This document shows, one piece after another, positions 13,002-45,778 of a stretch of 59,985 nt of DNA. Position 1 is the first letter of the stretch, and each line of letters starts with the position of its first letter. The notes beneath the pieces were generated by a model, which did not search any database, was not told the DNA's origin, and worked only from the letters and a program-made list of their open reading frames with translations. The translations under genes and the position numbers were made by a program. This DNA is from Ideonella aquatica (lineage in GTDB: Bacteria; Pseudomonadota; Gammaproteobacteria; Burkholderiales; Burkholderiaceae_C), in contig NZ_JAGQDE010000024.1 of the NCBI RefSeq assembly GCF_018069755.1, positions 1 to 59,985 on the forward strand, read 5' to 3'.

Positions 13002-13510
13002 GCCGGCTCCTTGGGTTCGGCGGGATCGCCGCCCTGGCGCAGGCGCTCGCCATTGGCCAGCATGCGCGTCAGCAGATCGACCAGGGTGCGCCACTCGTCG
13101 TGGCTGAAGCCGCGCAGGTGGCCGTTGAGCACCTCGGCCAGCACCTGGGGCACGCGGCGCGCCACCTTGCGGCCTTCGTCGGTCAGCACCAGGTTGACCA
13201 CGCGGCGGTCCTCGGTGGAGCGCTCGCGCCGCACCAGGCCCTTGGCCTCGAGGCGGTCGAGCGAGCGGGTCATCGCGCCCGGGTCAATTTCCAGGTCGCG
13301 CGCCAGGCCGGCCACGGTGTGGCCCTCCTTCATCACCAGCTTGTACAGCGGCAGCCACTGCACATAGGTCAGGTCGCAGCTGGCCAGTTGGGCATCGGCC
13401 TGCGCCAGGATGGAGCTGATGACCTTGCGCATCAGGTAGCCCACGCTCTCGTCGGGCCGGTACTGGCCCGGCTGGTAGAAGGCGGCGGGCTCGGTGTCTT
13501 TCTTCGGCAT
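12998..13510 (-). CDS. MarR-family transcriptional regulator of the efflux operon
   Basis: A 170-residue winged-helix dimeric regulator. The recognition part is 'TVAGLARDLEIDPGAMTRSLDRLEAKGLVRRE', followed by the wing 'STEDRRVVNLVLTDEGRKVARRV', the MarR signature. It is the first gene of the operon marR-nodT-emrA-emrB, and probably represses the operon until a ligand (a phenolic or drug) releases it. Candidate operator repeats lie 16-37 nt upstream of its start. Length and motif order are ordinary for the family. Confidence 0.92.
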   Translation of the reverse strand: MPKKDTEPAAFYQPGQYRPDESVGYLMRKVISSILAQADAQLASCDLTYVQWLPLYKLVMKEGHTVAGLARDLEIDPGAMTRSLDRLEAKGLVRRERSTEDRRVVNLVLTDEGRKVARRVPQVLAEVLNGHLRGFSHDEWRTLVDLLTRMLANGERLRQGGDPAEPKEPA

Positions 13511-13525
13511 GCGCTGCAGTTTAAT

Positions 13526-13547
13526 TGCCTATGCAATCATTGCCTGA
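13526..13547 (-). promoter_or_regulatory. Candidate MarR operator: nested ATTGC/GCAAT repeats
   Basis: The sequence contains ATTGC-CTAT-GCAAT (13526-13539) and, sharing an arm, GCAAT-C-ATTGC (13535-13545). ATTGCCT is also repeated directly at 13526 and 13541, 15 nt apart. This AT-rich cluster lies between the marR start (13510) and the divergent ABC exporter gene (13630). Its position and symmetry fit an autoregulatory MarR-dimer site. No clean -35/-10 pair could be fixed on the minus strand. Confidence 0.5.
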
Positions 13548-13629
13548 GCATTATTTGAATAGTCCAGTGTTTTGACAGGGTTTATGCGGGGGCGCGTCCC
13601 AGGCCCCCTCGGCTGCCTACACTGCAGCC

Positions 13630-15417
13630 ATGGCCAATCGTCCCGACCGTCCCACCGGCAGCAGCCCGCAATCGCTGTCCGGCCTGCTGCCCTTTCTGCG
13701 TCCCTACCGCCTGCAGATCGCGCTGGCACTGCTCTTCCTCATCATGGCGGCGGTCTCCACGCTGCTGCTGCCGGCGGCGCTGAAGTCGCTGGTCGACCAG
13801 GGCATCGTGGCGGCCGATCCGGGGCAGCGCGTGATGGCGCTGCGCGAGCATTTCCTGGCGCTGTTCGGCGTGGGCGCGGCGCTGGGCGTGTTCTCGGCCA
13901 GCCGCTTCTACATGGTGACCTGGCTGGGCGAGCGCATCACCGCCGACCTGCGCGATGCCGTCTACGCGCATGTGCTGCAGCAAAGCCCCGAGTTCTTCGA
14001 GACCACCGCCACCGGCGAGGTGCTCTCGCGCCTGACCACCGACACCACGCTGGTGCAGACGGTGGTGGGATCGAGCCTCAGCATGGGCCTGCGCAACACC
14101 GTGATGGGCATCGGTGCGCTGGCGATGCTGATCGTCACCAACCCCTGGGTGATGTTCCAGGTGATGGGCATCCTGGTGGTGGTGGTGCTGCCGGCGCTGG
14201 CCTTCGGCCGCCGGGTGCGCAAGCTCAGCCGCGCCAGCCAGGACCGCGTGGCCGATTCGTCAGCGATTGCCGCCGAGGTACTCAACGCGATGCCGGTGGT
14301 GCAGAGCTATGTGGCCGAACCGCGCGAGGCCGCGCGCTTCTCGGCCGCCACCGAGGCCGCCTTCGACACCGCCCGCAAACGCACCCGCGTGCGCTCCTTC
14401 CTGGTGGCCTTCCTGATCACCGCCACGTTCGGCGCGCTGCTGTGGGGCCTGTACCAGGGCACGCAGGCGGTGCTGCAGGGCGAGATCAGCGCCGGCCACC
14501 TGGGCCAGACGGTGCTGTACGTGATCCTGCTGGTCAGCTCGGTGGCGGTGCTGTCCGAGGTGTGGGGCGACCTGCTGCGCGCCGCCGGTGCCACCGAACG
14601 CCTGATGGAGCTGCTGCACGCCCGCTCCCCGATCGAATCGCCGGCCACGCCGCAGCCGCTGCCGGCCACGCGCGGCGGCTCGGCGCTGCAGTTGCAGGGC
14701 GTGCGTTTCCGCTACCCGTCGCGGCCGCAGCAGGCGGCGCTGGACGACATCAGCCTGAGCGTGCAACCCGGCGAGACCGTGGCCCTGGTCGGCCCCAGCG
14801 GTGCCGGCAAGAGCACCGTGCTGCAGCTGCTGCTGCGCTTCTACGATGTGGCCGAGGGCTCGGTGCAGGTGGACGGCGTGGACGTGCGCCAGGCCGACCT
14901 GGCCGCGCTGCGCGCGCGCATCGGCATCGTGCCGCAGGACAGCGTGATCTTCAGCGCCAGCGCGATGGAGAACATCCGCTACGGCCGCCCTGAGGCCACC
15001 GACGAGGAGGTCATCGCCGCCGCCAAGGCCGCCTTCGCGCACGACTTCATCCTGGCCCTGCCCGAGGGCTACGCCAGCTTCCTGGGCGAGCGCGGCGTGC
15101 GCCTGTCGGGCGGCCAGCGTCAGCGCCTGTCGATCGCGCGGGCGATGCTGAAGAACCCGCCGCTGCTGCTGCTGGACGAGGCCACCAGCGCGCTGGATGC
15201 CGAGAGCGAGCGCATGGTGCAGGCGGCGCTGGAATCCGCCATGCAGGACCGCACCACGCTGGTCATTGCCCACCGCCTGGCCACGGTGCAGCGCGCCGAC
15301 CGCATCGTCGTGCTGGAACACGGCCGCATCGTCGAGCAGGGCACGCACGCCGAACTGGTGGCGCGCGGCGGGCTGTACGCGCGCCTGGCCGCAATGCAGT
15401 TCCAGACCGCTGGCTGA
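13630..15417 (+). CDS. MsbA-like ABC exporter (fused permease and ATPase)
   Basis: A 595-residue half-transporter: six membrane segments (about residues 25-320) and a C-terminal nucleotide-binding domain. The Walker A GPSGAGKST is at 388-396, the signature is LSGGQRQRLSIARAML, and the Walker B/D-loop is LLLLDEATSALD. The switch His is in 'LVIAHRLATVQ'. It belongs to the MsbA/lipid-and-drug exporter group; MsbA proper is often recognised by context (lpxK), which is absent here, so the substrate is open. A TACACT hexamer ends 6 nt before the ATG and no ribosome-binding site is seen. Its stop is joined directly to the converging acyltransferase stop. Confidence 0.88.
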   Translation: MANRPDRPTGSSPQSLSGLLPFLRPYRLQIALALLFLIMAAVSTLLLPAALKSLVDQGIVAADPGQRVMALREHFLALFGVGAALGVFSASRFYMVTWLGERITADLRDAVYAHVLQQSPEFFETTATGEVLSRLTTDTTLVQTVVGSSLSMGLRNTVMGIGALAMLIVTNPWVMFQVMGILVVVVLPALAFGRRVRKLSRASQDRVADSSAIAAEVLNAMPVVQSYVAEPREAARFSAATEAAFDTARKRTRVRSFLVAFLITATFGALLWGLYQGTQAVLQGEISAGHLGQTVLYVILLVSSVAVLSEVWGDLLRAAGATERLMELLHARSPIESPATPQPLPATRGGSALQLQGVRFRYPSRPQQAALDDISLSVQPGETVALVGPSGAGKSTVLQLLLRFYDVAEGSVQVDGVDVRQADLAALRARIGIVPQDSVIFSASAMENIRYGRPEATDEEVIAAAKAAFAHDFILALPEGYASFLGERGVRLSGGQRQRLSIARAMLKNPPLLLLDEATSALDAESERMVQAALESAMQDRTTLVIAHRLATVQRADRIVVLEHGRIVEQGTHAELVARGGLYARLAAMQFQTAG

Positions 15418-16527
15418 TCACGCGCCCAGCCAGGGCGCCAGCCCGCGCCAGCGCAGCGCGGCGGCCGCCGCCATCAGCGAGATCGCCAGCGTGCCGACCA
15501 GCACGAGCGTGGCCTCCAGCCCCGGCGCCAGGCCCAGCGGCTTGAGCGCCACCAGCAGGCCGATCAGCACGGTCTGGTGCAGCACATAGACCGGAAAGAC
15601 CAGGCGCGAGGCCGTGCGCGTGTGCGCCGTGGTCCGGCCCAGCCATCGATGACCGAAGCCCAGCGCTGCCAGCACGCCACACCATTGCTCCAGCGCGAAG
15701 CCGGCGCGTGCCAGCACCAGCGGCATCTGATCGCCCCCGCTCTGCGCCGCGCCCCAGCCCAGCAGCACCCCACCCAGCGCCCACCAGCGCAGGCGCTCGA
15801 TCGCCAGCCAGGCCCCGGGCGTGCGCGCCAGCAGCGCGCCGACCAGGAAGGCCGGCAGGTACTGCGCGTGGGCCAGGGGGTCGTGGATCAGATCGTGCGT
15901 GACCTCGAACCAGGGCCGCAGCGCCAGGCGCAACACCGCGAGCAGCAGCCACGGCAGCGCCAGCAGGCTGAGCGCGCCCAGGCGCGGCGCCAGCCAGGCG
16001 CCAGCCCGGTCCAGCGCACCCGGCCAGCGGCGCAGCAGCGCCCACAGGCCCGCGGTGTACAGCATCAGGTAGGGCAGGAACCACAGGTGGTTCCAGGTGG
16101 GCAGCACCAGGCAGGCGCCGGCCGCGTCGCAGAAGCCGCCGTAGCCGCGCAGGTACAGGCCCATGAACGCGGCCAGGCTGCCGCCGTAGCCGAGCTGCTC
16201 GCGCACCTGCCACCAGGCCTGCGGCGGCACGATCAGCAGCACACCCGCCAGCAACGGAAGGCCCAGGCGTTTCAGGCGCGCACGCAACCAGCCCGGTGCG
16301 GCGCCCGGCAGCAGCAGGCCGGTCACCGCGCCCGAAATCAGGAACAGCAGGCTCATGCGCCAGGGGTTCAGCAGCTGCATCCAGGGTTCCAGCGCCGCGC
16401 TGGTGGTCGATCCTTTCACATGCCAGGGCCAGGGCACATAGGCCATGCCCAGGTGATAGAGCAGCAGCAGGCCCAGCGCGGCAATGCGCAGGTGATCCAG
16501 GAAGTGCAGGCGGCGGTCTGGGGTCAT
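15418..16527 (-). CDS. Acyltransferase 3 family membrane protein, OpgC-like
   Basis: A 369-residue integral membrane protein with about ten hydrophobic segments. The start 'RRLHFLDHLRIAALGLLLLYHLGMAY' contains the conserved Arg-x10-His pair of the acyltransferase 3 family. 'NHLWFLPYLMLYTAGLW' is typical of the OpgC/MdoC branch, which succinylates periplasmic glucans. The acceptor here could be a glucan or another surface polysaccharide. ATG 16527 is the first Met of the family-like region. Its promoter region is shared with the divergent thyA (48 nt between starts). Confidence 0.8.
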   Translation of the reverse strand: MTPDRRLHFLDHLRIAALGLLLLYHLGMAYVPWPWHVKGSTTSAALEPWMQLLNPWRMSLLFLISGAVTGLLLPGAAPGWLRARLKRLGLPLLAGVLLIVPPQAWWQVREQLGYGGSLAAFMGLYLRGYGGFCDAAGACLVLPTWNHLWFLPYLMLYTAGLWALLRRWPGALDRAGAWLAPRLGALSLLALPWLLLAVLRLALRPWFEVTHDLIHDPLAHAQYLPAFLVGALLARTPGAWLAIERLRWWALGGVLLGWGAAQSGGDQMPLVLARAGFALEQWCGVLAALGFGHRWLGRTTAHTRTASRLVFPVYVLHQTVLIGLLVALKPLGLAPGLEATLVLVGTLAISLMAAAAALRWRGLAPWLGA

Positions 16528-18882: not shown

Positions 18883-20238
18883 TCAGGCGGCGTGGCGCTG
18901 CGGTCGCTGTGCGCGCTGGGCCCGCAGGAACTCGCGGTACCAGTGGTAGCTGAGCTTGGGCGTGCGGGCCAGGGAGGCATAGTCGACGTGGACGATGCCA
19001 AAGCGCTTGGCGTAGCCCGAGGCCCACTCGAAGTTGTCCATCAGGCTCCACACCATGTAGCCAGCCATGGGCACCCCGGCGGCCAGTGCGCGGCCGGTGG
19101 CCTCGATGTGGCGGGCGATGTAGTCGCGGCGCGCGGTGTCCATCACCTGGCCGTCGACCACCTGATCGATGAACGCGGCGCCGTTCTCCATCACGTAGAT
19201 CGGCGGCAGGGTCCAGTCACGGTGCATGCGCAGCAGCAGCTCGGTCAGGCCCTCGGGCACGACCTCCCAACCCATGTCGGTCAGCGGCAGGCCGCTGGCC
19301 TGCACGCTCCACGCGCCGCTGGCACTGACCACGCCGCGCGTGTAGTAGTTGATGCCCAGGTAGTCCATCGGCGTGGCGATGGCGGCCAGATCGCCGGGCT
19401 CGATGCGGGGCGCGTCGGCACCCAGGTGCTGCCAGACGTCATCGGGGTAGCGACCGCGCAGCAGTGGATCCAGGTACCAGCGCACCAGCCGGCCATCCTC
19501 CAGCCAGGCGGCGGCGCGGTCCTCGGGGCTGTCGGTGGCCGGACCGATCGGCGACAGGTTCAGCACGATGCCCAGGCGACTGGGGCAGCCGTCGGCGCGC
19601 AGCGCCTGCAGCGCCAGGCCGTGGCTCAGCAGCAGGTGGTGCGCCACCTGCATGGCGATGCCCCGGTGGCGCACGCCGGGCGCGAAGATGCCGCTCTCGT
19701 GGCCCAGCACCGCCATCACCCAGGGTTCGTTGTGGGTGGTGATGGCCGACAGGCGGTCGCCCAGCCGGGCGTTGATCGCGCGGGCGTAGTCGACAAAGCG
19801 GTGTACGGTGTCGCGCACCGCCCAGCCGCCGCCGTCCTGCAGCGTCTGGGGCAGGTCCCAGTGGTTCAGCGTCAGGTAGGGGCGCAGTCCGCGCGACAAC
19901 AGACCGTCGACCAGGCGGTCGTAGAAGGCCAGTCCGGCCTCATTGAAGGCGCCGCGACCGTCGGGCTGCACGCGCGGCCAGCTGATCGAGAAGCGGTAGG
20001 CGTCCACCCCCAGCCGGGCGATCAGGTCCAGGTCCTGGTCGAGCCGGTGGAAGTGGTCGCAGGCCACATCGCCATTCGAGCCATCGGCGATCGCCCCGGG
20101 CTGGCGGCAGAAGCGGTCCCAGATCGATTCGCCCTTGCCGGCCTCGCGGGCCGCGCCCTCGATCTGGAAGGCGCTGGTGGCCACACCCCAGACGAACTCG
20201 GGCGGGAAAAAGGGATCGTGGGCAGGTGTCCGGGTCAT
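18883..20238 (-). CDS. GH1 beta-glucosidase
   Basis: A 451-residue cytoplasmic family 1 glycoside hydrolase without signal peptide. The N-terminal GH1 signature 'FVWGVATSAFQIEGA' is present, the general acid/base is E171 in THNEPW and the nucleophile is E351 in 'YVMENGAA'. The residue before the nucleophile is Met where Thr is usual (TENG). It would split imported beta-1,3-gluco-oligosaccharides, the last step of the surrounding glucan locus. A LacI-type operator lies 47 nt upstream (20285-20298), and the hexamer TACGCT lies 7 nt before the ATG, giving it its own regulated promoter downstream of lacI. Confidence 0.93.
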   Translation of the reverse strand: MTRTPAHDPFFPPEFVWGVATSAFQIEGAAREAGKGESIWDRFCRQPGAIADGSNGDVACDHFHRLDQDLDLIARLGVDAYRFSISWPRVQPDGRGAFNEAGLAFYDRLVDGLLSRGLRPYLTLNHWDLPQTLQDGGGWAVRDTVHRFVDYARAINARLGDRLSAITTHNEPWVMAVLGHESGIFAPGVRHRGIAMQVAHHLLLSHGLALQALRADGCPSRLGIVLNLSPIGPATDSPEDRAAAWLEDGRLVRWYLDPLLRGRYPDDVWQHLGADAPRIEPGDLAAIATPMDYLGINYYTRGVVSASGAWSVQASGLPLTDMGWEVVPEGLTELLLRMHRDWTLPPIYVMENGAAFIDQVVDGQVMDTARRDYIARHIEATGRALAAGVPMAGYMVWSLMDNFEWASGYAKRFGIVHVDYASLARTPKLSYHWYREFLRAQRAQRPQRHAA

Positions 20239-20284
20239 GGATGACAGCGTAGGCAGGGGCGATCGCCACGTGCGTGAGCAGGTG

Positions 20285-20298
20285 TGAAAGCGCTTTCA
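20285..20298 (-). promoter_or_regulatory. LacI-type operator upstream of the GH1 gene
   Basis: Perfect 14-bp palindrome TGAAAGCGCTTTCA with a central CG, the usual half-site geometry for LacI/GalR regulators. Identical copies stand at 25593-25606 and 25704-25717. It lies between the lacI stop and the GH1 start, 47 nt before the ATG, so it likely gives GH1 an independent response to the locus regulator. Confidence 0.8.
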
Positions 20299-20379
20299 GA
20301 ATGCCCTGATTCTGCGGTGAGTGGCCGCCCGGCACACTGCTGGTTAACCCCGAATGCGCGGCGCCGTCGAGGCGGCGGA

Positions 20380-21429
20380 TCAGCGCTGCAATCGACGCAC
20401 CGACTCGCGCGGCACCAGCTGCAGCGACGGCAGCGACACCTGCGCGGTCTCGCCACGCAACAGCGCCATCATCGCGGCTGCCGCCTGAAAGCCCATCTCG
20501 TACACCGGCTGGCGCACCGTGGTCAGCGGCGGAATCGCGAAGCGTGCCGGCGCCAGGTCGTCGAAGCCCACCAGCGAAACGTCGTCGGGCACCCGCACAT
20601 TGCGACGGTACAGGCCCAGTGCGGCGCCGATGGCGGTCTGGTCGTTGGCGGCAAAGATCGCGGTGAAGGGCAGCCGGGCATCCAACAGGCGGTTCACCGC
20701 CAGCAGGCCGCCAGCCTCGGTGTAGTCGCCCGGCGTGACCAGCGCGGGGTCAAAGGGCAGGCCGGCGCGGTCCAACGCCTCGCGGTAGCCGGCCAGGCGC
20801 TCATGGGCATCGGCGTGGTCGGGCTCGCCGCCGATGTAGGCGATGCGCGCATGGCCGCAATCGATCAGGTGTTGCGTGGCCATGGCCGCACCGGCGCGGT
20901 TGTCGAAACACAGGCCATGCACACGCGGACCCTGCATCTGGCGGCCCACCACCACCATCGGCACGTTGCCGGCGCCGGCCTGCAGCGCCCGGTTCGACAG
21001 CCGCCCGGCCAGCACGATCAGCCCGTCCACGCGGCGGGCCATCAGCGCGTCCAGTGCCTTGCGCTCCTCGGCCTCCTGCCAATGGCCGCTGACGAAGATC
21101 GGGATGTAGCCGGCCTCGTCCAGGCGGTCCTCGATGCCATGCAGCGCTTCGCCGTAGAACGGACTGCTGATCGTCTGGGTCAGCACGCCGATGCTCAGCG
21201 TGCGCCCCCCGGCCAGGCCGCGGGCCACCGGATTGGGGCGAAAACCCAGCGACTGGATCGCCGCATCCACCGCCTGCTGCTTGACCTGGCTGACGCGCGC
21301 GGTGCCGTTGAGGATGCGCGAGACCGTGCTGGGCGACACCCCGGCCGCCTGGGCGACCATCTCCAGCGTCACCACACCGGCGGCAGGGGTTGCAGAACCC
21401 CGGACACGGCGGGGCGAGGTGTTGCTCAT
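20380..21429 (-). CDS. LacI-family transcriptional regulator of the beta-glucan locus
   Basis: A 349-residue repressor. The helix-turn-helix is 'TLEMVAQAAGVSPSTVSRILNG' (residues 21-42, quoted TLEMVAQAAG then VSPSTVSRILNG), with an unusually long 20-residue Ala/Pro/Arg lead. The hinge region and a periplasmic-binding-protein-like sugar domain follow ('LSIGVLTQTISSPFYGEAL', 'AIFAANDQTAIGAALGLYR', 'VSLVGFDDLAPARF'). The effector is probably a beta-1,3-gluco-oligosaccharide (inference). It sits between the GH81/lipoprotein genes and GH1, and three identical palindromes in the locus are its likely targets. GGAG lies upstream of the ATG at 21429. Confidence 0.92.
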   Translation of the reverse strand: MSNTSPRRVRGSATPAAGVVTLEMVAQAAGVSPSTVSRILNGTARVSQVKQQAVDAAIQSLGFRPNPVARGLAGGRTLSIGVLTQTISSPFYGEALHGIEDRLDEAGYIPIFVSGHWQEAEERKALDALMARRVDGLIVLAGRLSNRALQAGAGNVPMVVVGRQMQGPRVHGLCFDNRAGAAMATQHLIDCGHARIAYIGGEPDHADAHERLAGYREALDRAGLPFDPALVTPGDYTEAGGLLAVNRLLDARLPFTAIFAANDQTAIGAALGLYRRNVRVPDDVSLVGFDDLAPARFAIPPLTTVRQPVYEMGFQAAAAMMALLRGETAQVSLPSLQLVPRESVRRLQR

Positions 21430-21553
21430 CAGGGGCACTCCAGCACACAGTGGGACCGACCGGCCGCGCCGGACAAGGCGCGCCACGGCAGTCCAGGCAT
21501 GGATGCATTGTGGCAGTCCGCTGGCACGCCAGGCCGCCAGATCGCCGTCGGTC

Positions 21554-23209
21554 TCACTCGATGGTGATGCCGCCCACCAGAACCAGCGTGCTCGGGTAGA
21601 CGCCCGAGCCATTGAGCACCGACAGATTGGCACCGCTGCTGAGCGTCCCGTCCGACACCGCGATGCCACCACCCACGCCCTGGAACGAGAGCTGCGACAG
21701 CGGCGACTTGGCCAAGGCATCAGCCACGCTGCTGGCCGCCCCGCCGCAGTCCTGCGACAGCACGAAGGAGCTCAGCGGCACCGCGTAGTCGGTGGCCGAG
21801 GCCGCCGTGGCGGTGAGCACGCGGTGCAGCTGCAGCCGGCAGTCGGTATTGGCGCCCACGGTGAAGCGCTTGCCCAGGTCAGCAACGATCAGGACGTTGT
21901 GGTTGGGTGCGCTGAACCACTCGGCGTTCTGGCCCAGTTTGAACTTCAGCTGCGTCTGCGAGCCCACCTGCAGGCCGGCTGTGTCAACGCCGCCCGTCAG
22001 GCCGCCGCTCACGCCGGGTGCCTGCACGTAGATGCCCATGAACAGGTCGGTGGCCGGCGTGGCGGTCTGGTGGTAGTAGAAGAAGTAGCTGTCAGCGGCG
22101 GACACGGCGGGCGTGAACCCACCGCCGCTGCCGCAGTTCGCCGGGTCGCCGTTGCAGGCATAGCCGTCCAGGTTGCTGCCGCTGAAGCCGCCGAACTCAC
22201 CCCCCTCGACGGTGCGGTTGCCCGCACCAAAGCCGCTGGAGAACACCAACGGGCCCGTGCTGCCGCCGCCGGCCGGCCAGGGATAGATGAGGTTGTCGAG
22301 GTAGTAGGTGCGCGCAGCCCCCACGGTGGCGCCCGGGGTGCCGAAGTCAAAGAACACCGACAGCCGGTCGTAGCTGGCCGCCAGGTCCAGCGTCGGGGTG
22401 CCCGGCACCGGCCGGGAGAAGTCGAAACTCAGCGTCTGCCAGCCGGAGGCCGTGGTGACAGTGGCCTCGGTCTCGACCGTCTTGGCTGGCCGGGTCGAGT
22501 CCTCCACCTTCATGCGCACTGGGATGCCGGCCACCGGCGACCAGATGCGCGCGGTGATCGTCGACCGGCCGGCGGCGAAGCCGATGCGCGGGAGGGTGTT
22601 GCCCGCCGCGGTGGACAAGGTGGTTCCGGCCCAGGGCTCGGCCGTGGCGCTCTTGACGATGCGGGCCACCAGGTTGCCGGCACGGCTGGGGTCGACCACC
22701 ACCGCAGCGTCTTCGGCGCCGCCAAAGCCTGCCAGGATGGGGGCGGTGGTCTCGTCGAAGCTCACCACGCCGGAGCGCAGCGTGGTGTTGAAAGCCTGGC
22801 TGGCCGAGGTCTCTGCATTGACCGTGCCCACGGCGTCGGTGACGCCAGCCGCAAGCACCGTCACCTGCACCGTACCCGAGGACGCTGGCGTGGGTGTGAC
22901 CACCAGCGTGGCAGCGGTGCCCGAGCGCCGGATGAAGGCGCCCTTGGTCCCGCCGCTGACCGCGATGTCGTCCGCGGTGAAGCTGGTGCCGACATCGACG
23001 TTGAACGAGAAGGTGAAGGTGATGTCGCCGCTGGCCGTCTCGTCGGTGATGTTGTGGGTGATCGTCACCACCGGCACGGTCGCCGTGACCTCATGGCCAC
23101 CGTCCTGCGGCGGCGCAACCCCATTGCCACCGCCACAGGCAGCCAGGGAGACGATCAGCACGGCGGCGGCCGCGGCGGCAAGGTTCAGACGGAGTCGACG
23201 GGTGGTCAT
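21554..23209 (-). CDS. Exported lipoprotein with Ig-like and carbohydrate-binding-like regions
   Basis: A 551-residue protein with no catalytic motif that I recognise. The N-terminus is a lipoprotein signal ending in LAACGGG. About residues 35-125 resemble a bacterial Ig-like domain ('ITDETASGDITFTFSFNVDV', 'TFTADDIAVSGGTKGAF'). About 150-290 resembles a beta-sandwich carbohydrate-binding module ('WQTLSFDFSRP', ending 'TYYLDNLIYPW'). About 300-551 is a second large beta-rich region with a Cys pair (CNGDPANCG). It lies 46 nt after the GH81 gene and upstream of lacI. A surface glucan-binding role is inferred from location and architecture. Coding composition is like its neighbours. Confidence 0.75.
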   Translation of the reverse strand: MTTRRLRLNLAAAAAAVLIVSLAACGGGNGVAPPQDGGHEVTATVPVVTITHNITDETASGDITFTFSFNVDVGTSFTADDIAVSGGTKGAFIRRSGTAATLVVTPTPASSGTVQVTVLAAGVTDAVGTVNAETSASQAFNTTLRSGVVSFDETTAPILAGFGGAEDAAVVVDPSRAGNLVARIVKSATAEPWAGTTLSTAAGNTLPRIGFAAGRSTITARIWSPVAGIPVRMKVEDSTRPAKTVETEATVTTASGWQTLSFDFSRPVPGTPTLDLAASYDRLSVFFDFGTPGATVGAARTYYLDNLIYPWPAGGGSTGPLVFSSGFGAGNRTVEGGEFGGFSGSNLDGYACNGDPANCGSGGGFTPAVSAADSYFFYYHQTATPATDLFMGIYVQAPGVSGGLTGGVDTAGLQVGSQTQLKFKLGQNAEWFSAPNHNVLIVADLGKRFTVGANTDCRLQLHRVLTATAASATDYAVPLSSFVLSQDCGGAASSVADALAKSPLSQLSFQGVGGGIAVSDGTLSSGANLSVLNGSGVYPSTLVLVGGITIE

Positions 23210-23255
23210 GGTGGTGGTCCAGGTGGTCGCTGCGGTCGCGCCGGGCAGCCGGGAG

Positions 23256-25547
23256 TCAGGTGCCCTCGGCGCGGGCCAGCCGACCGGGCGGTACCGCCAG
23301 CTCGCGGCCATCCGAGAAGCGCACCCGAATGGGCTGACGGCCGGCATTGAAGGCCAGGTAGGTGCGGCGGCCATCGGGGCGACGGAACACCTGGTAGAGC
23401 GTGGTGTCGGCGCTGATGCTGGTGTCGGGCGCGCCCATCGCCGCCAGGCTGAGCAGGAAGTGCAGCGTGTGGCTGCGGCTGTCCCCGGCTTCAACAGCGC
23501 CCCAGCGGTCCCAGCCCGCCAGCGCCGCCTCGGGGTCGGCCAGCGCGCCGTACTTGGCGAAGATGTCCTGCCAGATGTCCGGCGGGTCAAAGCGCTTGCC
23601 GCGCTCGGCCCAGATCTTCTGCTCGTCCTTCAGCGACGCCAGGTTGCGCCGGATGTAGTCGGGGTGGCTGGCAAAGTAGGTGGAGACGGTGGTGATCGGC
23701 AGCAGGTTGATGCCGGTGATCTGCCGCGGCTCGTCGATCCACCAGGTGTTGTGGGCGTACTTGCCGCCGAAGACCATGCTGACGTCGGCGTTGCGGTATT
23801 CGGGTGCGAAGACGATGCGGTGCAGGTCGAACCAATAGTGGCGCACCGCCTCGGTCTCGGTGACCAGCATCCAGGTGCCCAGATCGCGCAGCGCCTGGTC
23901 GCCAGTGACCTCACCCCACAGGATCAGGCCGGCCCAGGCGTTGAGCGCCTCGCTGGACGACTCCTGGTTGTTGCCCCACTCACCCAGGCCAATGCCCGAG
24001 GCCCAGCTGTGGCCCTCATAGGGGTCAAAGTTGCGCAGAAAGGGGAAGTCGGCGCGACCGCGCTCGGCGGTGGCGATGTCCTTGACCAGCAGGTCGACCA
24101 TGTCGCCCCAGCGGCCGCGTGCCGCCCAGTCGGGGTCGCGCAGCGCGATCTCGGCCACCGCGCGGATCCAGTAGCCGTAGTGGAAGTGGTGGTCGTTCAT
24201 CTGCACCACCGCAAAGTACTCCTCGGGGTAGCCCACCACCGTGCCCATGGCCTGGTCCCAGTGGAAGAAGCGCCGCTTGTCGCCGCCCGAGAACCACTCC
24301 TCGACGCGCTTCTTCAGCAGGCCCAGCAGGCGTTCGGCGCCTTCGCGGTCGCCCTGCTGTTCGCAGACGTCAAGCATCTTGACCAGGCGCAGCAGGCCCT
24401 TGCCCTGCCAGTAGGGCCCCTCGCCGCCCTGCTGCAGCATGCGGTGGGCGTTGCGCACGTCGGCCTTCATGGCCTCGCGCAGATCGCCCACGCGCGGGCT
24501 GCTGTCGGGCACGGCGGGCCAGTAGGGCACGAAGCCGGTGTAGCGGCTGGTGGTGGTGAAGCGCTTGTCGGCCAGCAGCTTCATCGGTCCGCGCAGCGTG
24601 GCGTAGGCCGGGCCCAGGCGGCCCTCGACGCTGGCGTTGCCGTGCCAGTGGTGCGGGTACAGACCCAGCAGCGGCGTGGCTTCGTTGCCCTCAAGCGGCT
24701 GGGTGGTGGCGGTGAAGACGGTCTCGACGCGGCCGCTGGCGCGGTCGACGCTCCAGCTGACCCGGGTGTCGGTGACCGCGGCATAGGCGTGCTTCAGCAG
24801 CAGGGCCTGCGTGGCAGCGCTGTCGTCGGGCAGGGCCGCGGCGACCAGGTAGCCCTGGCCGGCCGGCAGACGGGCAACCCACTCGGCCGGCGCGGCCTGC
24901 TCCCACTGCACGCCGGTCGGGCCGTAGAGCGCGTAGGGCGTGCCGGCCAGGCGCAGCAGCAACACCCGCGGGTCGGCCGACGGCAGGCGCTCGGCCGGCT
25001 GCTTCAGGCGTACCCGCAGGTCACCGCGGCCGACGCGCAGCCAGACGTAGGGGCTGCCGTGGGCGATGGTGGCATCGAAGCGGTCGGCGCCGCGGCCCAT
25101 GGCGATGTCCACCGTCCAGTCGCTGGCGCCGGCCAGCAGGGCCCGGCCCGGCTCGAAGGCGGTGGGCGCGATCAGCAGATCGTCCCGGTGGGCGTGGTGG
25201 ATCTCGACGTCGCGGCGCTCGGTGGGCACCACCGCCTTCTTCGGCAGCGACACCTCCAGCCCGGCGGCGGTGGGTTTCACCGTCAGCGGCAGTGCGTAGA
25301 TGGGCTCGGGCTGATCGCTGAAGATCAGCGTGGAGTACCACTGGTTGGTGGGCGCTGCGCGGCGGGCCATGGCCTCGGTGCGGTGTGGCGCCCGCGGGAC
25401 GCTGGCGTTGCCTCGAGGGCTCAGGCTGACGCGCCCTGCGCCCAGCGCCACCCCGTCGGCCTGGGCCCAGGCCGGGCTGCCCACGCCCGCGCAGCCAAAG
25501 CCCAGCGCGGGCAGAATGCCAAGGAGATCGCGGCGGGTGAGGGTCAT
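23256..25547 (-). CDS. GH81 endo-beta-1,3-glucanase, Tat-exported
   Basis: A 763-residue glycoside hydrolase. The start 'MTLTRRDLLGILPALGFG' is a twin-arginine signal, cleaved near AWAQ. The GH81 hallmarks are 'APTNQWYSTLIF', 'NDHHFHYGYWIRAVAEIA', 'YEGHSWASGIG' and 'WGNNQESSSEALNAWAG', with candidate catalytic Glu529 in NNQE. The family hydrolyses beta-1,3-glucans such as laminarin, curdlan and callose. The start at 25547 removes about 175 non-coding-looking residues of the longer open frame. An operator palindrome lies 46 nt upstream (25593-25606). It heads the minus-strand arm GH81-lipoprotein-lacI-GH1. Confidence 0.92.
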   Translation of the reverse strand: MTLTRRDLLGILPALGFGCAGVGSPAWAQADGVALGAGRVSLSPRGNASVPRAPHRTEAMARRAAPTNQWYSTLIFSDQPEPIYALPLTVKPTAAGLEVSLPKKAVVPTERRDVEIHHAHRDDLLIAPTAFEPGRALLAGASDWTVDIAMGRGADRFDATIAHGSPYVWLRVGRGDLRVRLKQPAERLPSADPRVLLLRLAGTPYALYGPTGVQWEQAAPAEWVARLPAGQGYLVAAALPDDSAATQALLLKHAYAAVTDTRVSWSVDRASGRVETVFTATTQPLEGNEATPLLGLYPHHWHGNASVEGRLGPAYATLRGPMKLLADKRFTTTSRYTGFVPYWPAVPDSSPRVGDLREAMKADVRNAHRMLQQGGEGPYWQGKGLLRLVKMLDVCEQQGDREGAERLLGLLKKRVEEWFSGGDKRRFFHWDQAMGTVVGYPEEYFAVVQMNDHHFHYGYWIRAVAEIALRDPDWAARGRWGDMVDLLVKDIATAERGRADFPFLRNFDPYEGHSWASGIGLGEWGNNQESSSEALNAWAGLILWGEVTGDQALRDLGTWMLVTETEAVRHYWFDLHRIVFAPEYRNADVSMVFGGKYAHNTWWIDEPRQITGINLLPITTVSTYFASHPDYIRRNLASLKDEQKIWAERGKRFDPPDIWQDIFAKYGALADPEAALAGWDRWGAVEAGDSRSHTLHFLLSLAAMGAPDTSISADTTLYQVFRRPDGRRTYLAFNAGRQPIRVRFSDGRELAVPPGRLARAEGT

Positions 25548-25592
25548 GGCGGCGTCTCGTGAGCCCGAAGTGAACGGCCAGATGATTGTGTT

Positions 25593-25606
25593 TGAAAGCG
25601 CTTTCA
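25593..25606 (-). promoter_or_regulatory. LacI-type operator for the GH81 arm
   Basis: Perfect palindrome TGAAAGCGCTTTCA located 46 nt before the GH81 start codon, in the 250-bp divergent region between the two arms of the glucan locus. Placement within the likely 5' untranslated or promoter region fits repression of the minus-strand arm. I could not fix a convincing minus-strand -35/-10 pair around it. Confidence 0.8.
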
Positions 25607-25673
25607 GAATTGGCTGTCGTTTTCCCGAATATCGTCGATCCGGGGTTGCGGGAAAACACGGACGCTTGATCCG

Positions 25674-25717
25674 TTGACCCGACGGGGCATCGGCTCTATC
25701 GTTTGAAAGCGCTTTCA
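25674..25717 (+). promoter_or_regulatory. Sigma-70 promoter and LacI-type operator of the porin arm
   Basis: A -35 hexamer TTGACC (25674-25679) and -10 hexamer TATCGT (25697-25702) are separated by 17 nt. The operator TGAAAGCGCTTTCA (25704-25717) begins one base after the -10 and covers the expected start point near 25709. This is the classical arrangement for direct repression by a LacI-family protein. The leader to the porin ATG would be about 90 nt. Confidence 0.7.
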
Positions 25718-25797
25718 GGTTTGATGTGCCGAGGCCCTGCCCTCCATCACCCGAGCCTGGCGACGCCCACCTCCGTTCTGCCGTCCCGAGGCCCTCC

Positions 25798-27165
25798 ATG
25801 CCGCCACCGAACCGCCGCCTCCCGCACCAGCCTCGCCCGCTCCGGCCCCAGCGCACCGGCACCGCCGTGCTGGCCCTGGGCGCTGCACTGATGGCCGCGC
25901 CGGCCACCGCCGTGGAGTTCGGCCCCTTCAGCCTCACCGGCTTCGCCAAGGCCGAGTGGACCAGCACCACCAATGTCTGCGAGGACTGCCAGCGCGAACT
26001 GGGCGAGAACCGCCAGCGCATCTGGGCCGACGACCTGGCCTTTGGCAAGCGCTTTGGCACGCGCAGCGAGCATGTCACGCTGTTCCAGCCCTACCTGGGC
26101 GCCAAGCAGCGTGTCGGCGGCGGCTTCGAGCTCTTCGGCCTGCTGAGCCAGCGCTGGCGTGACGGCCGGGTGGATCTGGACGGCTGGCTCTACGAACGCA
26201 ATGTCGGCATCGCCCACGAGGACTGGGGCCGCCTGACGGTTGGCGCCATGACCACGCGCGGCTGGAGCGTGCCGGACTACCCCTACTCGTTCAAGGCCAT
26301 CGGCTCGGACTTCTGGGGCGGTGGCGTGGGCTCATCCACCGCCTGGAGCGACAGCGGCGCCGCCTACGGTCTGCTGAGCCGCGCGGTGCGCTACATGTCG
26401 CGCCCGGTGGAGTTCCTCGGCGGCGACGTGCTGCTCGAAGCCACCTACGACTTTGGCAAGTCCGGCTGGACGCGCAACCGTCCGTCCTTTCTGGAGCTCT
26501 ACGCCAAGTACATCGGCCGCGACCTGCTGGTCGACCTCATCGTGCAATCGGCGAAGAACGGCGAACCCGTGGCCTGGGGCAAGGCGCCCTTCGGCGGCCT
26601 GACACCCTTCCCTGCCGACGACCCGCTGCTGGGCGGCTCCAGCCAGGGCATGGCGATGCTGATGGTGCGCCACCTGCTGAACCCGCAGCTGGAACTGTCG
26701 GGCGGCCTGCGCCTGAACCGATGGAGCGGCGCCTACGCCGTGCAGACCACACCCGGCGCGCAAGGCCGCTGGAACAGCATGTTCAACGTCGACTGGGGGG
26801 GCGTTGACGCCAACGGCGTGCCCAACCCCGGCTACGCCGCACGCTCCACCGATGGCATGCTGGGCGTTCGCTACCGCTGGGACGACAAGCTCACCATCGG
26901 CGGCGGCCTGGTCCACCTGGGCCAGGCCCGCACCAAGAACCCCAGCGAGCGCGGCCAGAGCAACACGCTGACGGTGGCCAGCGCCAGTGTGGGCTACACG
27001 CTCAACGAACACGTCAACCTCTACGCCTCGGCCAGCGCCTACCAGTACGGGCGCAAGGGTCTGGCGCCGCTGTCGGTGCCGGCCCATGACGCCTTCACGC
27101 GCATCGACGCGCGCGTCGCCAAGCGCGGCAACGCGGTCGCCGTCGGCGTCAACTTCACGTTCTGA
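25798..27165 (+). CDS. Outer-membrane porin of the beta-glucan locus
   Basis: A 455-residue beta-barrel-type outer-membrane protein. A long Arg/Pro-rich start leads into a hydrophobic signal ending APATAVEF. The rest alternates short amphipathic strands rich in aromatic and small residues, and the protein ends in the outer-membrane sorting signal 'GVNFTF' with a terminal Phe. A Cys pair 'CEDC' lies near the mature N-terminus. It is not a TonB-dependent receptor, since no plug domain or TonB box is seen. Uptake of beta-1,3-gluco-oligosaccharides is inferred from its operon: GH17 starts 8 nt downstream. The ATG at 25798 is preferred to an in-frame GTG at 25726, which lies just after the operator. 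Confidence 0.8.
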   Translation: MPPPNRRLPHQPRPLRPQRTGTAVLALGAALMAAPATAVEFGPFSLTGFAKAEWTSTTNVCEDCQRELGENRQRIWADDLAFGKRFGTRSEHVTLFQPYLGAKQRVGGGFELFGLLSQRWRDGRVDLDGWLYERNVGIAHEDWGRLTVGAMTTRGWSVPDYPYSFKAIGSDFWGGGVGSSTAWSDSGAAYGLLSRAVRYMSRPVEFLGGDVLLEATYDFGKSGWTRNRPSFLELYAKYIGRDLLVDLIVQSAKNGEPVAWGKAPFGGLTPFPADDPLLGGSSQGMAMLMVRHLLNPQLELSGGLRLNRWSGAYAVQTTPGAQGRWNSMFNVDWGGVDANGVPNPGYAARSTDGMLGVRYRWDDKLTIGGGLVHLGQARTKNPSERGQSNTLTVASASVGYTLNEHVNLYASASAYQYGRKGLAPLSVPAHDAFTRIDARVAKRGNAVAVGVNFTF

Positions 27166-27173
27166 GGCCTGCC

Positions 27174-28934
27174 ATGACTCCTCGACTCCCCCCTGCCCTG
27201 CGGCGTGCGCGTTCGCTGATGGCCCTGGCCGCCCTGGTGCTGACGGGCAGCGTGCTGGCCCTGGCTGGCTGTGGCGGCGGTGGCAGCGGCGGCTACACCG
27301 AGCAGGCCGTCTCGCAGACCAGCGAGCGGCGCCTGCTGCCCAGCAGCCTGATGACCCGCGCTGCGGTCAATTACTCGCCCTACCGCACGTCGGCCAACGC
27401 CAGCCAGCTTGCCAACGAGGTGATCACGCCGGCCCAGGTGCTGCAGGACCTGCGGCTGGTGCAGGCCACCGGCATCGGCACGATCCGCCTGTTCAGCAGC
27501 CGCGCCTTCGCGCGCACCGTGCTGGAGGTGATCCGCGACAACGCGCTGGACCTGAAGGTCTACCTGGGCGCCTATCCCAACCCGGTCACCGACGCGGCCG
27601 CCGAGGCCGACAACCTGGCCGAGCTGGAGGCCTGCATCGCGCTGGCCAAGGACTTCCCGGACACGGTGGTGGCCGTCAGCGTGGGCAACGAGACCATGGT
27701 CGAATGGTCGGCCCACAAGATCGCGGTGGCCGACATGGCGCGCTACATCAAGCATGTGCGCGACGCCATCACCCAGCCGGTCACCACCGACGACAACTTC
27801 CTGTTCTGGGCCTCGGTACCCAAGTCGATCGCCGAAGTGGTGGACTTTGCCGCGGTGCACGTCTACCCCTTCCTGGACACCTACTACAACCCCAGCGCCT
27901 ACGACTGGCGGCAGAAGGCCGTGGCCGAGCCGCAGCGCGCCCAGGCAATGATTGACGCCACGCTCACCGAGGCGAAATCGCAGTTCGAGCGCGCCCGTCA
28001 GGGCCTGGTCAAGCTCAACCTGGGCAGCCTGCCGATGCTGATCGGCGAAACCGGCTGGGCCGCGGTGGATACCGCGGGCGGCCCCAACCTGGCCTTCCGC
28101 GCCCACCCGGTGAACCAGAAGCTCTACCTCGACGGCCTGGAGAGCTGGGTGCAGCAGGGCCGCCAGGACGCCCAGGGCCCGAAGGCCATCTTCATCTTCC
28201 AGGCCTTCGACGAGCCCTGGAAACAGGGCGACGACGGCTGGGGCCTGTTCAACGCGCAACGCCAGGCCCGCTACGCGGTGCAGGCCCTGGGCACCTGTGG
28301 CGTGACCTGGACCTGCGAGGCCGGCAGCTACACCCCGGCCGATGCCACCAAGTGGGTGCAGCCCACGTTGGCGCCCGCGGTGACGGCCGCGCGCTACACG
28401 CTGTTCGCCGACACGGCGGCGGCTGACGAGGTGTTCGCCACCGGCCTGCGCTGGGACCCGTTCGCGCTCAGCGGCTACCGCGAGTCCGCGTCAGGGCTGG
28501 CCTCCGGCGATGGTGGCGTGTACCTCGAAATCTCGCCCAACCCGCTGGACTACGGCTGGGGCCTGTTCCGCTACTCGGGCAGCGGCGTGCTGGAGAACCT
28601 CTCCGGCTTCGCCAACGGCCGGCTGAACTTCCAGGTGCACAGCGACGGCTACCCCGGCAAGATCGAGGTCGGCATCACCACCGACACCGAGGACCGCGAT
28701 ATCCAGGAAGCCTTCCTGCAGGTGGGACCGGGCGACCATGGCTACTGCAACAGTGGCGGCTGGTGCCAGGTGTCGATTCCAGTCAGCGCCTTCCTGGCGG
28801 TGAACCCGAAGCTGGACCTGCGCTATGTGAACTTCCGCTTCATCATCGCTGACCGCTTCAGCTTCACCGGCAAGCCCCTGAATTACACGGGCCTGCCAGT
28901 GCTGAACATCGACGATCTGCACTGGTCGCGCTGA
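27174..28934 (+). CDS. GH17-type beta-1,3-glucanase lipoprotein
   Basis: A 586-residue lipoprotein with a signal ending LALAGCGGGG. The TIM-barrel region matches family 17: 'AAVNYSPYR' at the start, the acid/base E173 in 'VSVGNETMVEW' and the nucleophile E292 in 'MLIGETGWA', with 'FIFQAFDEPWK' at the end of the barrel. The last about 200 residues form a beta-sandwich-like domain ('DYGWGLFRYSGSG', 'NFQVHSDGYPGKIEVGI', 'YVNFRFIIAD'), probably carbohydrate-binding. Family 17 enzymes cut or transglycosylate beta-1,3-glucans. The stop shares one base with the next start (TGATG), so it is coupled to the sugar symporter. Confidence 0.88.
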   Translation: MTPRLPPALRRARSLMALAALVLTGSVLALAGCGGGGSGGYTEQAVSQTSERRLLPSSLMTRAAVNYSPYRTSANASQLANEVITPAQVLQDLRLVQATGIGTIRLFSSRAFARTVLEVIRDNALDLKVYLGAYPNPVTDAAAEADNLAELEACIALAKDFPDTVVAVSVGNETMVEWSAHKIAVADMARYIKHVRDAITQPVTTDDNFLFWASVPKSIAEVVDFAAVHVYPFLDTYYNPSAYDWRQKAVAEPQRAQAMIDATLTEAKSQFERARQGLVKLNLGSLPMLIGETGWAAVDTAGGPNLAFRAHPVNQKLYLDGLESWVQQGRQDAQGPKAIFIFQAFDEPWKQGDDGWGLFNAQRQARYAVQALGTCGVTWTCEAGSYTPADATKWVQPTLAPAVTAARYTLFADTAAADEVFATGLRWDPFALSGYRESASGLASGDGGVYLEISPNPLDYGWGLFRYSGSGVLENLSGFANGRLNFQVHSDGYPGKIEVGITTDTEDRDIQEAFLQVGPGDHGYCNSGGWCQVSIPVSAFLAVNPKLDLRYVNFRFIIADRFSFTGKPLNYTGLPVLNIDDLHWSR

Positions 28935-30364
28935 TGGCTGCCAGCGCACCGCAGCGGGTGGCCTGGCGCCACAAGCTCGCCTTCGGTCTGGGCATGCTGG
29001 CCAACCAGATGTTCCCGGCGGCGCTGGGCATCTTCATGGTGGTGCTGGTGCAGGACATGGGCTTTCCCAGCTGGATGTGGGGCATCCTGTTCTTCCTGCC
29101 ACGGGTCTTTGACGCCGTCAGTGACCCCATCATGGGGTTCATCTCCGACAACACCCGCTCGCGCTGGGGCCGGCGTCACCACTACGTGTTCCTGGGCGCG
29201 ATCGTGATGGGGGTGTCCTTCATCGCGATGTGGCAGCTCCACCGCAGCGACGGCCTCACCCACAACTTCGTCTACTTCCTGCTCTGGTCCCTGGTGTTCT
29301 ATACCGGGCTGACGCTGTTCAGCATTCCCTACGTGGCGATCGGCTACGAGATGAGTGACGACTTCCATGAGCGCACCAGCATCATGGCGGTGGCGCAGTG
29401 GGTCGGCCAGTGGGCCTGGGTGATTGCACCGTGGTTCTGGGTGGTGATGTACGACCGCCGCTGGTTCGACAACGCCGACGCCGCCACCCGGCACCTGGCC
29501 TGGTGGGTGGGCGGCATCTGCATGCTGCTGGCGATGGTGCCTGCGCTGTTCATCCCGCGGCGCTCCAGCGCGGACGACACCCACCTGATCCCGCTGACCT
29601 GGCGCCACCTGGGCGGCGGCGTGCGCGAGATCCTGAACGGCTTCCAGGAAGCCTTTGGCTCGGCGCCCTTCCGTCAGCTGTGCTTTGCCACCTTCCTGAT
29701 CTTCAACGCCTTCAACACCGTGGCAGCGTTCTCGTTCTTCATCGTGGTCTACCACCTGTTCGGCGGCGACACCGCGGCGGCCGGCACCTGGCCCACCTTG
29801 TTCGGCAGCATTGGCGCGCTGATCACCACCTTCGCGGTCATCCCCACCGTGGCCTGGTTGTCGCGCCGCCTGGGCAAGAAGAACGCCTTCATGCTGTCGC
29901 AAGGCCTGTCGGTCATCGGCTACGTGCTGCTGTGGTTCCTGATGGTGCCCGGCCAGCCGGCGCTGTTCATCATCGCCCTGCCTTTCTTCTCCTTCGGCAT
30001 CGGTGGCCTGTTCACGCTGATGATGTCCATGACCGCCGATGTCTGCGACCTGGATGAGCTGGCCACCGGCAAGCGCCGCGAAGGCATCTTCGGCGCCATC
30101 TACTGGTGGATGGTGAAGTTCGGCTTCGCGATCGCCGGCCTGCTCAGTGGCGCCATCATGAGCCTGGTGGGCTTCACGCCAGGCGCCGCCAGCCAGGCCG
30201 CGGGCGCGGTGGATGGACTGCGCCTCTTCTACTCCGGCGTGCCGATCGTGGGCACGCTGCTGGCGATGTGGGTGATGCGCGACTACGACCTGGACGAGCA
30301 GCGCGCCGCCCAGGTGAAGGCCGAGCTGGCAAGGCGCTCGACGGCTGCGGCTGCCGCCGTATAG
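28934..30364 (+). CDS. GPH-family sugar:cation symporter
   Basis: A 476-residue inner-membrane transporter with 12 hydrophobic segments. '[36 protein letters not shown]' carries the glycoside-pentoside-hexuronide motif (conserved pieces [10 protein letters not shown] and SRWGRRH). '[20 protein letters not shown]' is a second family signature. It would import the gluco-oligosaccharides released by GH81 and GH17 and admitted by the porin. It ends the plus-strand arm, which is porin-GH17-GPH with 8-nt and overlapping junctions. Confidence 0.88.
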
Positions 30365-45368: not shown

Positions 45369-45740
45369 TGGTGGAGCCGGGGGGAATTGAACCCCCGTCC
45401 GCAAGCCATCGCCAGGTAGATCTACATGCTTAGCTGACTGATTTGGTTCTCACACCCCGTGCCGCGCAGCAGCACGCTGCCCGGGATGCCAGCCACTGAG
45501 TCTCGTCGCCTGGTGAGTGGCCCACCGGTCGACCAGCCAATGTGAATGACCTCTCTGTCTTTGGTCTTGCGACCTCAGACGCAGCCCATCGGCCAACTGC
45601 TGAGAGGCTCACCGGTGTTAAGCGGCGAGGGCGAAACGTTCGTCGTTCGCAGTTACTTGTTTCCAGTGGTTTTACGAGCGAACTGGTGCTCGGCATGCCC
45701 TATCCCGACTCCGCACCCACGTCGAAACCAGGTCGGCCCC
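45369..45740 (-). ncRNA. ssrA: Transfer-messenger RNA (tmRNA)
   Basis: A 372-nt RNA for ribosome rescue. The 5' end GGGGCCG pairs with CGGCTCC before the 3' ACCA (45369-45371 encode CCA), including the G3-U pair recognised by alanyl-tRNA synthetase. The T-arm GGGGGTTCAATTCCCCC is at the 3' end. The tag frame (45618-45650) reads ANDERFALAA then TAA, the usual betaproteobacterial degradation tag. It is the standard one-piece form. Transcription appears to start within the end of gph. Confidence 0.97.
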
Positions 45741-45751
45741 AGGAAGCAAGT

Positions 45752-45778
45752 AGTTTAGGCCAGATTCAGCCAGTTCAA
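45752..45778 (-). promoter_or_regulatory. Putative ssrA promoter nested in the end of gph
   Basis: Minus strand: TTGAAC (45773-45778), 15-nt spacer, TAAACT (45752-45757), then 11 nt to the mature tmRNA 5' end. The spacer is shorter than ideal. The TAA of the -10 element is the gph stop codon. Confidence 0.45.

Follow-up and report, generated by a model that had tools for sequence, protein, structure and literature searches.

In a stretch of 59,985 nucleotides from Ideonella aquatica (contig NZ_JAGQDE010000024.1; called the window when its whole length is meant), we analyzed a locus at positions 18883-30364 in which seven genes are arranged in two divergent arms. Genes for a glycoside hydrolase of family GH1, a LacI-family regulator, a lipoprotein and a GH81 enzyme are read from the minus strand, and they face genes for a porin, a GH17 lipoprotein and a GPH-family symporter on the plus strand (Table 1). 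We consider it likely that these genes form the porin arm of a beta-1,3-glucan regulon under LacI control, whose TonB/ABC arm is located elsewhere in the genome. The gene families, the operator pattern with its conservation among relatives, and the layout over three loci are direct observations. New here are the palindrome TGAAAGCGCTTTCA, its three loci in the genome and its placement at the promoter on the porin side.

The seven long open reading frames are all present and possess a third-codon-position GC content (GC3) of coding type. Together with the family searches, they confirm the order and the coordinates given in the original prediction, which had been made from the letters of the window alone. 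Start codons of the LacI, lipoprotein, GH81 and porin genes were picked from signal peptides and alignments. Domain families were assigned with Pfam and NCBIfam for ten proteins within and flanking the locus, supplemented by sequence searches of PDB and by Foldseek searches with predicted structures. The organism's own genome (5.17 Mb; G000) was searched by sequence pattern and by protein.

The predicted operator and its three loci

The 14-letter sequence TGAAAGCGCTTTCA is a perfect palindrome with three copies in the window, compared to 0.07 expected from shuffles with up to two mismatches allowed. Seven exact copies are present in the 5.17-Mb genome, against 0.0026 expected from the base composition of the window; allowing one mismatch added one further genomic copy, and the reversed control pattern gave one. 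The regulator encoded between the GH1 and lipoprotein genes carries a LacI-type helix-turn-helix (HTH; Pfam, 5.5e-14) as well as Peripla_BP_3 and Peripla_BP_1 domains, which upholds its assignment as a LacI regulator; no NCBIfam LacI model attains its cut-off. For LacI regulators, even palindromes centered on CG are typical (PMC4052901; this and all other PMC articles are cited from excerpts). Since an HTH and a sugar-binding domain are here combined with an even, CG-centered palindrome located 5' of the target genes, as in a repressor/operator pair, we predict that TGAAAGCGCTTTCA is the operator of the locus LacI. The HTH and hinge letters of this protein are common to the LacI proteins of relatives, and copies of the palindrome lie near GH1/LacI in many of them. 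It is the only LacI of this kind that was found in the own genome, where five other LacI proteins are 35-38% identical; a widened pattern located the HTH in three of these five paralogues, and all three differ there from the window LacI.

On the porin side, the palindrome follows a sigma-70-like promoter, one of two promoter-like sites in 11.9 kb where 0.5 are expected. All 29 loci examined have the pattern TTGAC-N-(15 to 19)-TA just 5' of the operator on the porin side, with spacers of 17 or 18. This count is descriptive and not blind, because a narrower pattern had missed most sites and its widening came after inspection of the sites. This set consists of the window, L021-L042 and six more loci, many of them close kin and therefore not 29 independent events; it leaves out the duplicates L046 and L051, the porin-less L043-L045, L053 and L054, and the distant-porin loci L055 and L057. 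The gap from the promoter to GAAAGC measures 2-3 bases in 28 loci and 11 bases in L030, and the operators of L041 are imperfect. As a separate observation, a GGG(T/A)AAAC box lies 12-15 bases 5' of the GH81-side operator core in 27 of the 29 loci (positions 25619-25626 on the minus strand of the window).

The remaining four exact copies mark two other loci of the genome. Two are found at G000:C22 (L067, 157001-176900), where a TonB receptor and halogenase-like genes face an ABC/GH1/GH16/GH3 cluster; both of them, and a third copy with one mismatch, lie between the two gene groups. The genes behind this receptor are, judged by their sequence type, presumably tryptophan-halogenase-like. The other two are at G000:C11 (L066, 76001-95000), one before each of two lipoproteins with carbohydrate-binding modules (CBMs), of which the second also faces an SSF symporter; one of these CBM lipoproteins has three Big_12 stretches. 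G000:C11 probably represents a third locus belonging to the regulon. The C22 stretch (157001-176900) showed no LacI gene, whereas the TonB locus of Ideonella alba possesses its own LacI copy (L074), 62% identical to the window LacI. For this reason the window LacI is likely the master of both the seven-gene locus and the TonB/ABC locus, and it probably controls the latter in trans.

The locus had been described as complete and self-contained, which is not supported, since two other loci of this genome carry the operator as well, one of them with a TonB receptor and ABC, GH1, GH16 and GH3 genes. What holds is that no SusCD or TonB receptor is in view: the Pfam scan of the ten proteins within and flanking the locus detected neither a SusC/SusD-type domain nor a TonB-dependent receptor. 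The phrase "self-contained, no TonB" thus applies to the window, yet probably not to the organism.

Conservation among relatives

A scan of named genomes with the GH17 protein of the locus, run by short peptide patterns and therefore not exhaustive, yielded 25 loci. Three are spirochaetal and 22 betaproteobacterial, from Ideonella alba, Rubrivivax, Leptothrix, Hydrogenophaga and others, with one labelled only Pseudomonadota. All 22 betaproteobacterial loci found in this manner contain the divergon of lipoprotein-GH81 versus porin-GH17 in the same order (the lipoproteins of L033 and L039 are cut by the stretch end), compared to none of the three spirochaetal ones; the core divergon is not peculiar to the own genome. 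Among the 22 loci, the stretch includes the GPH gene in at least 17, GH1 in at least 11 and LacI in at least 8, since each stretch reaches only about 10 kb from GH17 or stops where its contig does. The exact seven-gene order was present in the window and in Ideonella alba (L021; L046 is taken as a duplicate) and in no other of the stretches examined, many of which end early. In line with the notion that such a locus is little described, no publication on it was found among the top-ranked matches in open-licence PubMed Central papers. In the spirochaetal metagenome-assembled genomes (L043-L045), we noted relatives of the GH17 lipoprotein with 36-38% identity; a distant LacI (27-30%) in L043 and L044 is the sole further match to a gene of the locus within these three short stretches.

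Two sets of 149 relatives, taken here as the same, served for counts of GH81 and the operator. GH81 is present in 11 of them, the own genome included, and seven of the ten other carriers have the divergent GH81-porin pair. The exact TGAAAGCGCTTTCA occurs in 20 relatives: 10 of the 11 GH81 carriers possess it, compared to 10 of the 138 non-carriers (Fisher test, 1.7e-9, uncorrected for kinship), and within the genus it is found in 6/6 carriers and 0/10 non-carriers. Eight of the ten operator-bearing non-carriers were examined (G454 and G476 are outside these eight); five contain a match to the TonB receptor together with an ABC/GH1 cluster, the receptor match being partial in G420 and G473 (37-39%), and three do not. 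Single exact operators with no known regulon genes nearby were noted in L091, L092 and L093 (G429, G058 and G055), with a distant LacI (31-35%) in L091 and L093; these reflect either chance or another regulon.

Of 16 genomes tested, 8 were found to encode a close relative of the C22 TonB receptor; in Rubrivivax pictus, none was detected. At a threshold of 1e-60, none was found in 6 of the 11 GH81 carriers (G403, G407, G424, G432, G464 and G032), where more distant receptors are possible; the first five of these genomes possess both GH81 and the operator. These five genomes, together with the fact that the window encodes enzymes and transporters leading from the polymer to glucose, would suit a locus that is independent and complete, with the other two operator loci arising by chance or serving another regulator outside of beta-1,3-glucan use. 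Such independence appears unlikely to us in view of seven exact palindromes in 5.17 Mb that fall at three loci with carbohydrate-type genes, of the GH1, GH16 and GH3 genes contained in the TonB locus, and of the LacI gene that was seen in the TonB locus of Ideonella alba and not in the own one.

The porin

The porin has no relevant match in Pfam or NCBIfam, and no porin is among its PDB sequence matches. Its predicted model is a barrel of 16 long strands, as counted from the strand list (pLDDT 82, pTM 0.81), and the nearest folds in Foldseek are Omp32 (7.5e-16), BpsOmp38 and the chitoporin VhChiP, with E-values around 1e-15 and 12-15% identity. A 16-strand beta-barrel is hence predicted for this protein although it stands outside known sequence families, and the model agrees with the call as an outer-membrane porin. 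It is about 100 residues longer than the three solved porins and differs from them in having no Pfam match. Chitoporin provides a precedent for an oligosaccharide-specific porin.

Porin relatives at 31% (L055) and 26% (L057) identity occur in other arrangements, and among 399 genomes sampled across the order, the own one included, the porin is present in three. Could it be a general pore, with all outer-membrane uptake left to the TonB receptor at C22 and the window providing only enzymes and the symporter? The fold matches to general porins, the TonB receptor under the same operator and the differently arranged distant relatives would agree with this, whereas a general pore would hardly be expected to adjoin GH17 and to be transcribed away from GH81 in 22/22 loci found through GH17, under an operator with a conserved promoter, in so few genomes of the order, and in genomes with no close relative of the C22 receptor. 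We therefore judge a general pore to be rather improbable.

Enzymes, lipoprotein and substrate

The family assignments of the three enzymes in the original prediction were borne out by Pfam, NCBIfam and PDB matches. GH81 matches the C-terminal domain PF17652 (1.6e-52) and the PDB GH81 entry 6fop (3e-160 over residues 219-939); the Pfam model for its N-terminal domain scores below the cut-off. Its N-terminus reads TRRDLL in the window and in Ideonella alba, and export by the twin-arginine translocation (Tat) pathway is likely for the window protein, as had been proposed. A pattern search returned the twin-arginine motif in 5/35 GH81 rows (window, L021, its duplicate L046, L039 and L055), a count to be read with caution, since the match sits at the wrong place in several rows and further rows, e.g., L036 and L038, also show twin arginines. 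Tat export was consequently dropped as a general feature of this type of locus.

GH1 matches PF00232 (4.1e-151) and the NCBIfam model TIGR03356 (BGL), the latter with 596 bits (cut-off, 478.5). It contains THNEP and MENG, which we take to be catalytic-type motifs of the family; no signal peptide is evident by eye at its N-terminus, from which we infer a cytoplasmic location. GH17 is barely above the Pfam cut-off for PF00332 (4.3e-7; 30.3 against 28.2 bits) and matches 6fcg, FbGH17A from Formosa, at 2e-25. We assume that its GNE and ETGW motifs harbor the acid/base and nucleophile glutamates of GH17. The C-terminal region of about 190 amino acids found no match in PDB by sequence; it may be a counterpart of the glucan-binding end of VvGH17 (PMC9026390).

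The lipoprotein begins with a lipobox (LAAC-GGG), followed by an Ig-like Big_12 domain (Pfam), a CBM that we call module A (residues 147-311) and a C-terminal module. A family profile of the protein matches 8qx6, a laminarin-binding CBM, at 1.9e-13 (0.0074 with the single sequence), and module A finds the same entry in Foldseek at 1.9e-6 (entry title "Novel laminarin-binding CBM X584"). The top Foldseek match of the lipoprotein is 7kwb, with a low TM-score of 0.18. These features are consistent with the earlier description of a binding-type lipoprotein. Among relatives, module A is present in 0-5 copies per lipoprotein (20 proteins from among L021-L066, one copy partial), which suggests that its number differs through tandem gain and loss.

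Because GH81 and GH17 enzymes are encoded together with a lipoprotein whose module A is akin to the laminarin-binding 8qx6, beta-1,3-glucan is well supported as the predicted substrate class. GH17 and GH81 enzymes act on several beta-1,3-glucans, i.e., laminarin, curdlan, callose and fungal wall glucan. FbGH17A of Formosa cuts laminarin (PMC6246565), which is a major carbon store of algae (PMC11345257). GH17 also includes transglycosylases (PMC11005184), so that one might think of another or an endogenous beta-glucan, e.g., a periplasmic or capsular glucan of the cell itself, that is remodelled and not fed upon. This is highly improbable, since catabolism is indicated by the LacI regulator, the symporter and the GH1 beta-glucosidase, the solved relative of the CBM is annotated as binding laminarin, and GH81 is patchily distributed (11/149 relatives).

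The symporter and the GPH-GH17 fusion of relatives

The symporter matches the Pfam domain MFS_2 (4.5e-67), and we predict that it belongs to the GPH family; this part of the original prediction is only partly confirmed, as the NCBIfam model gph is hit at 1.5e-55 with 188.7 bits, below its cut-off of 231.35. In 15 non-redundant relatives the GPH gene continues into a GH17 domain (L047 and 14 of the 17 named loci in which it is present). Pfam confirmed the fusion in one of them, L024 from Rubrivivax pictus (13145-15499, minus strand), and pattern searches found both GH17 catalytic motifs in 13 of the 15 fusions, with one pattern missing in L036 and L039 not parsed. The gene is unfused in the window, in Ideonella alba and in L028, and that of L032 is truncated. 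A count over 399 genomes of the family, to which no genome contributed more than two scored candidates, gave 11 GPH-GH17 fusions and four unfused symporters.

An MFS-GH17 fusion has been described as FbGH17B in Formosa, and in the excerpt its authors knew of none in other bacteria (PMC6246565); given this precedent, we dropped the fusion as a novelty. We likewise discarded the idea that the window GPH keeps a remnant of a fused GH17: an alignment ran past the stop codon, but the letters there are by eye unlike the linker. Within the window, the fused-type GH17 domain is matched well solely by the GH17 lipoprotein. Two relatives that were scanned, L024 and L030, have extra GH30, GH16 and further GH17 genes, a Formosa-like set.

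Table 1. Features of the locus, with positions in the window.
Feature	Positions	Strand	Basis or remark
GH1 beta-glucosidase, 451 aa	18883..20238	-	Pfam PF00232, NCBIfam TIGR03356
Predicted operator O3, exact palindrome TGAAAGCGCTTTCA	20285..20298	strandless	46 bases 5' of GH1 start
LacI-family regulator, 349 aa from MSNTSPRR	20380..21429	-	Pfam LacI, Peripla_BP_3, Peripla_BP_1
Modular lipoprotein, 551 aa	21554..23209	-	Lipobox, Big_12, CBM module A, C-terminal module
GH81 endo-beta-1,3-glucanase, 763 aa from MTLTRRD, twin-arginine signal	23256..25547	-	PF17652, PDB 6fop
Predicted operator O1, exact palindrome TGAAAGCGCTTTCA	25593..25606	strandless	45 bases 5' of GH81 start
Sigma-70-like promoter TTGACC-N17-TATCGT, towards porin arm	25674..25702	+	Ends one base before O2
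Predicted operator O2, exact palindrome TGAAAGCGCTTTCA	25704..25717	strandless	On probable start point of porin arm
Outer-membrane porin, 455 aa when started at the first ATG; GTG at 25726 is another possible start	25798..27165	+	Predicted barrel, Foldseek
GH17 lipoprotein, 586 aa, catalytic domain and C-terminal region of ~190 aa	27174..28934	+	Pfam PF00332, PDB 6fcg
GPH-family sugar:cation symporter, 476 aa, unfused	28934..30364	+	Pfam MFS_2

Outside the locus, the window contains a tmRNA gene (45369-45852, minus strand) with the tag ANDERFALAA, for which two calls with different 5' ends were obtained.

Comparison with known systems

The laminarin polysaccharide utilization loci (PULs) of Formosa, with FbGH30, FbGH17A and MFS-FbGH17B, include a GH17 endo-laminarinase that is related in sequence to the window GH17, and relatives of the window resemble them in carrying GH30 and a symporter-GH17 fusion. 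These PULs rely on TonB-dependent receptors and SusD-like proteins (PMC6246565), in contrast to the porin, GH81, LacI operator and unfused symporter of the window. Also similar are laminarin clusters of marine Gammaproteobacteria, which combine GH3, GH16, GH17, GH30 and occasional GH81 with no SusCD; they contain other TonB-dependent transporters (PMC8371827), whereas here a porin is part of the locus and the TonB receptor is encoded elsewhere in the genome. The TonB carbohydrate scavenging loci of Xanthomonas (PMC1790865) are reminiscent of the second operator locus, in which a TonB receptor accompanies carbohydrate genes; the window differs from them in possessing a porin in place of the receptor. 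With surface glycan-binding proteins and CBM X584 (7kwb, 8qx6), the window lipoprotein shares a lipobox and modular beta-sandwich architecture, and its module A is homologous to 8qx6. It is unlike the surface glycan-binding proteins in not lying beside SusCD and in having an Ig-like domain first, followed in relatives by 0-5 copies of module A.

Discussion

Several points weigh against a porin arm of a beta-1,3-glucan regulon. The whole-protein model of the lipoprotein is poor (pTM 0.47), its single-sequence match to 8qx6 is weak, and for GH17 and GH81 the sequence cannot pick among laminarin, curdlan, callose and fungal wall. The 22/22 divergons are conditional on a search through the GH17 gene; among the ten other GH81 genomes, L055 has its 31% porin on the GH81 strand, and no porin lies in the stretches of L053 and L054. 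G032 carries GH81 with no exact operator. The 14-mer is not perfectly specific, because for five of the ten operator genomes lacking GH81 no related carbohydrate locus was demonstrated. Finally, the porin could be a general pore, as discussed above.

Under the reading that we favor, substrate, cell locations, porin selectivity, inducer and LacI binding are inferred, and the system would operate as follows. When the substrate is absent, LacI would occupy the TGAAAGCGCTTTCA sites at the GH81, porin and GH1 promoters, and it would be released once a beta-1,3-gluco-oligosaccharide or a product derived from it is sensed. GH81 and the GH17 lipoprotein would then cleave a laminarin-like glucan, either extracellularly or at the cell surface, where the CBM lipoprotein would retain it. 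Short oligosaccharides would pass the outer membrane via the dedicated porin, be carried across the inner membrane by the GPH symporter and be converted to glucose by GH1. The same LacI would probably govern in trans the TonB receptor/ABC/GH16/GH3 locus and the CBM-lipoprotein/SSF-symporter locus.

More tentatively, and with a chance that we place somewhat below even, the porin may be the founding member of a family of porins for beta-1,3-gluco-oligosaccharides ("laminariporins"), which would provide energy-free outer-membrane uptake together with the CBM lipoprotein. One LacI would then co-switch uptake by the cheap porin and by the costly TonB/ABC system, with species holding one or both of these routes.

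In the literature cited here, descriptions of laminarin use mostly concern marine bacteria whose uptake is of the TonB or SusCD type. Since the betaproteobacterial system described here is conserved and combines a porin with a well-defined operator, porin and TonB uptake can be compared within one organism, probably under one regulator, and species where just one of these routes was detected permit the same contrast to be drawn across species.

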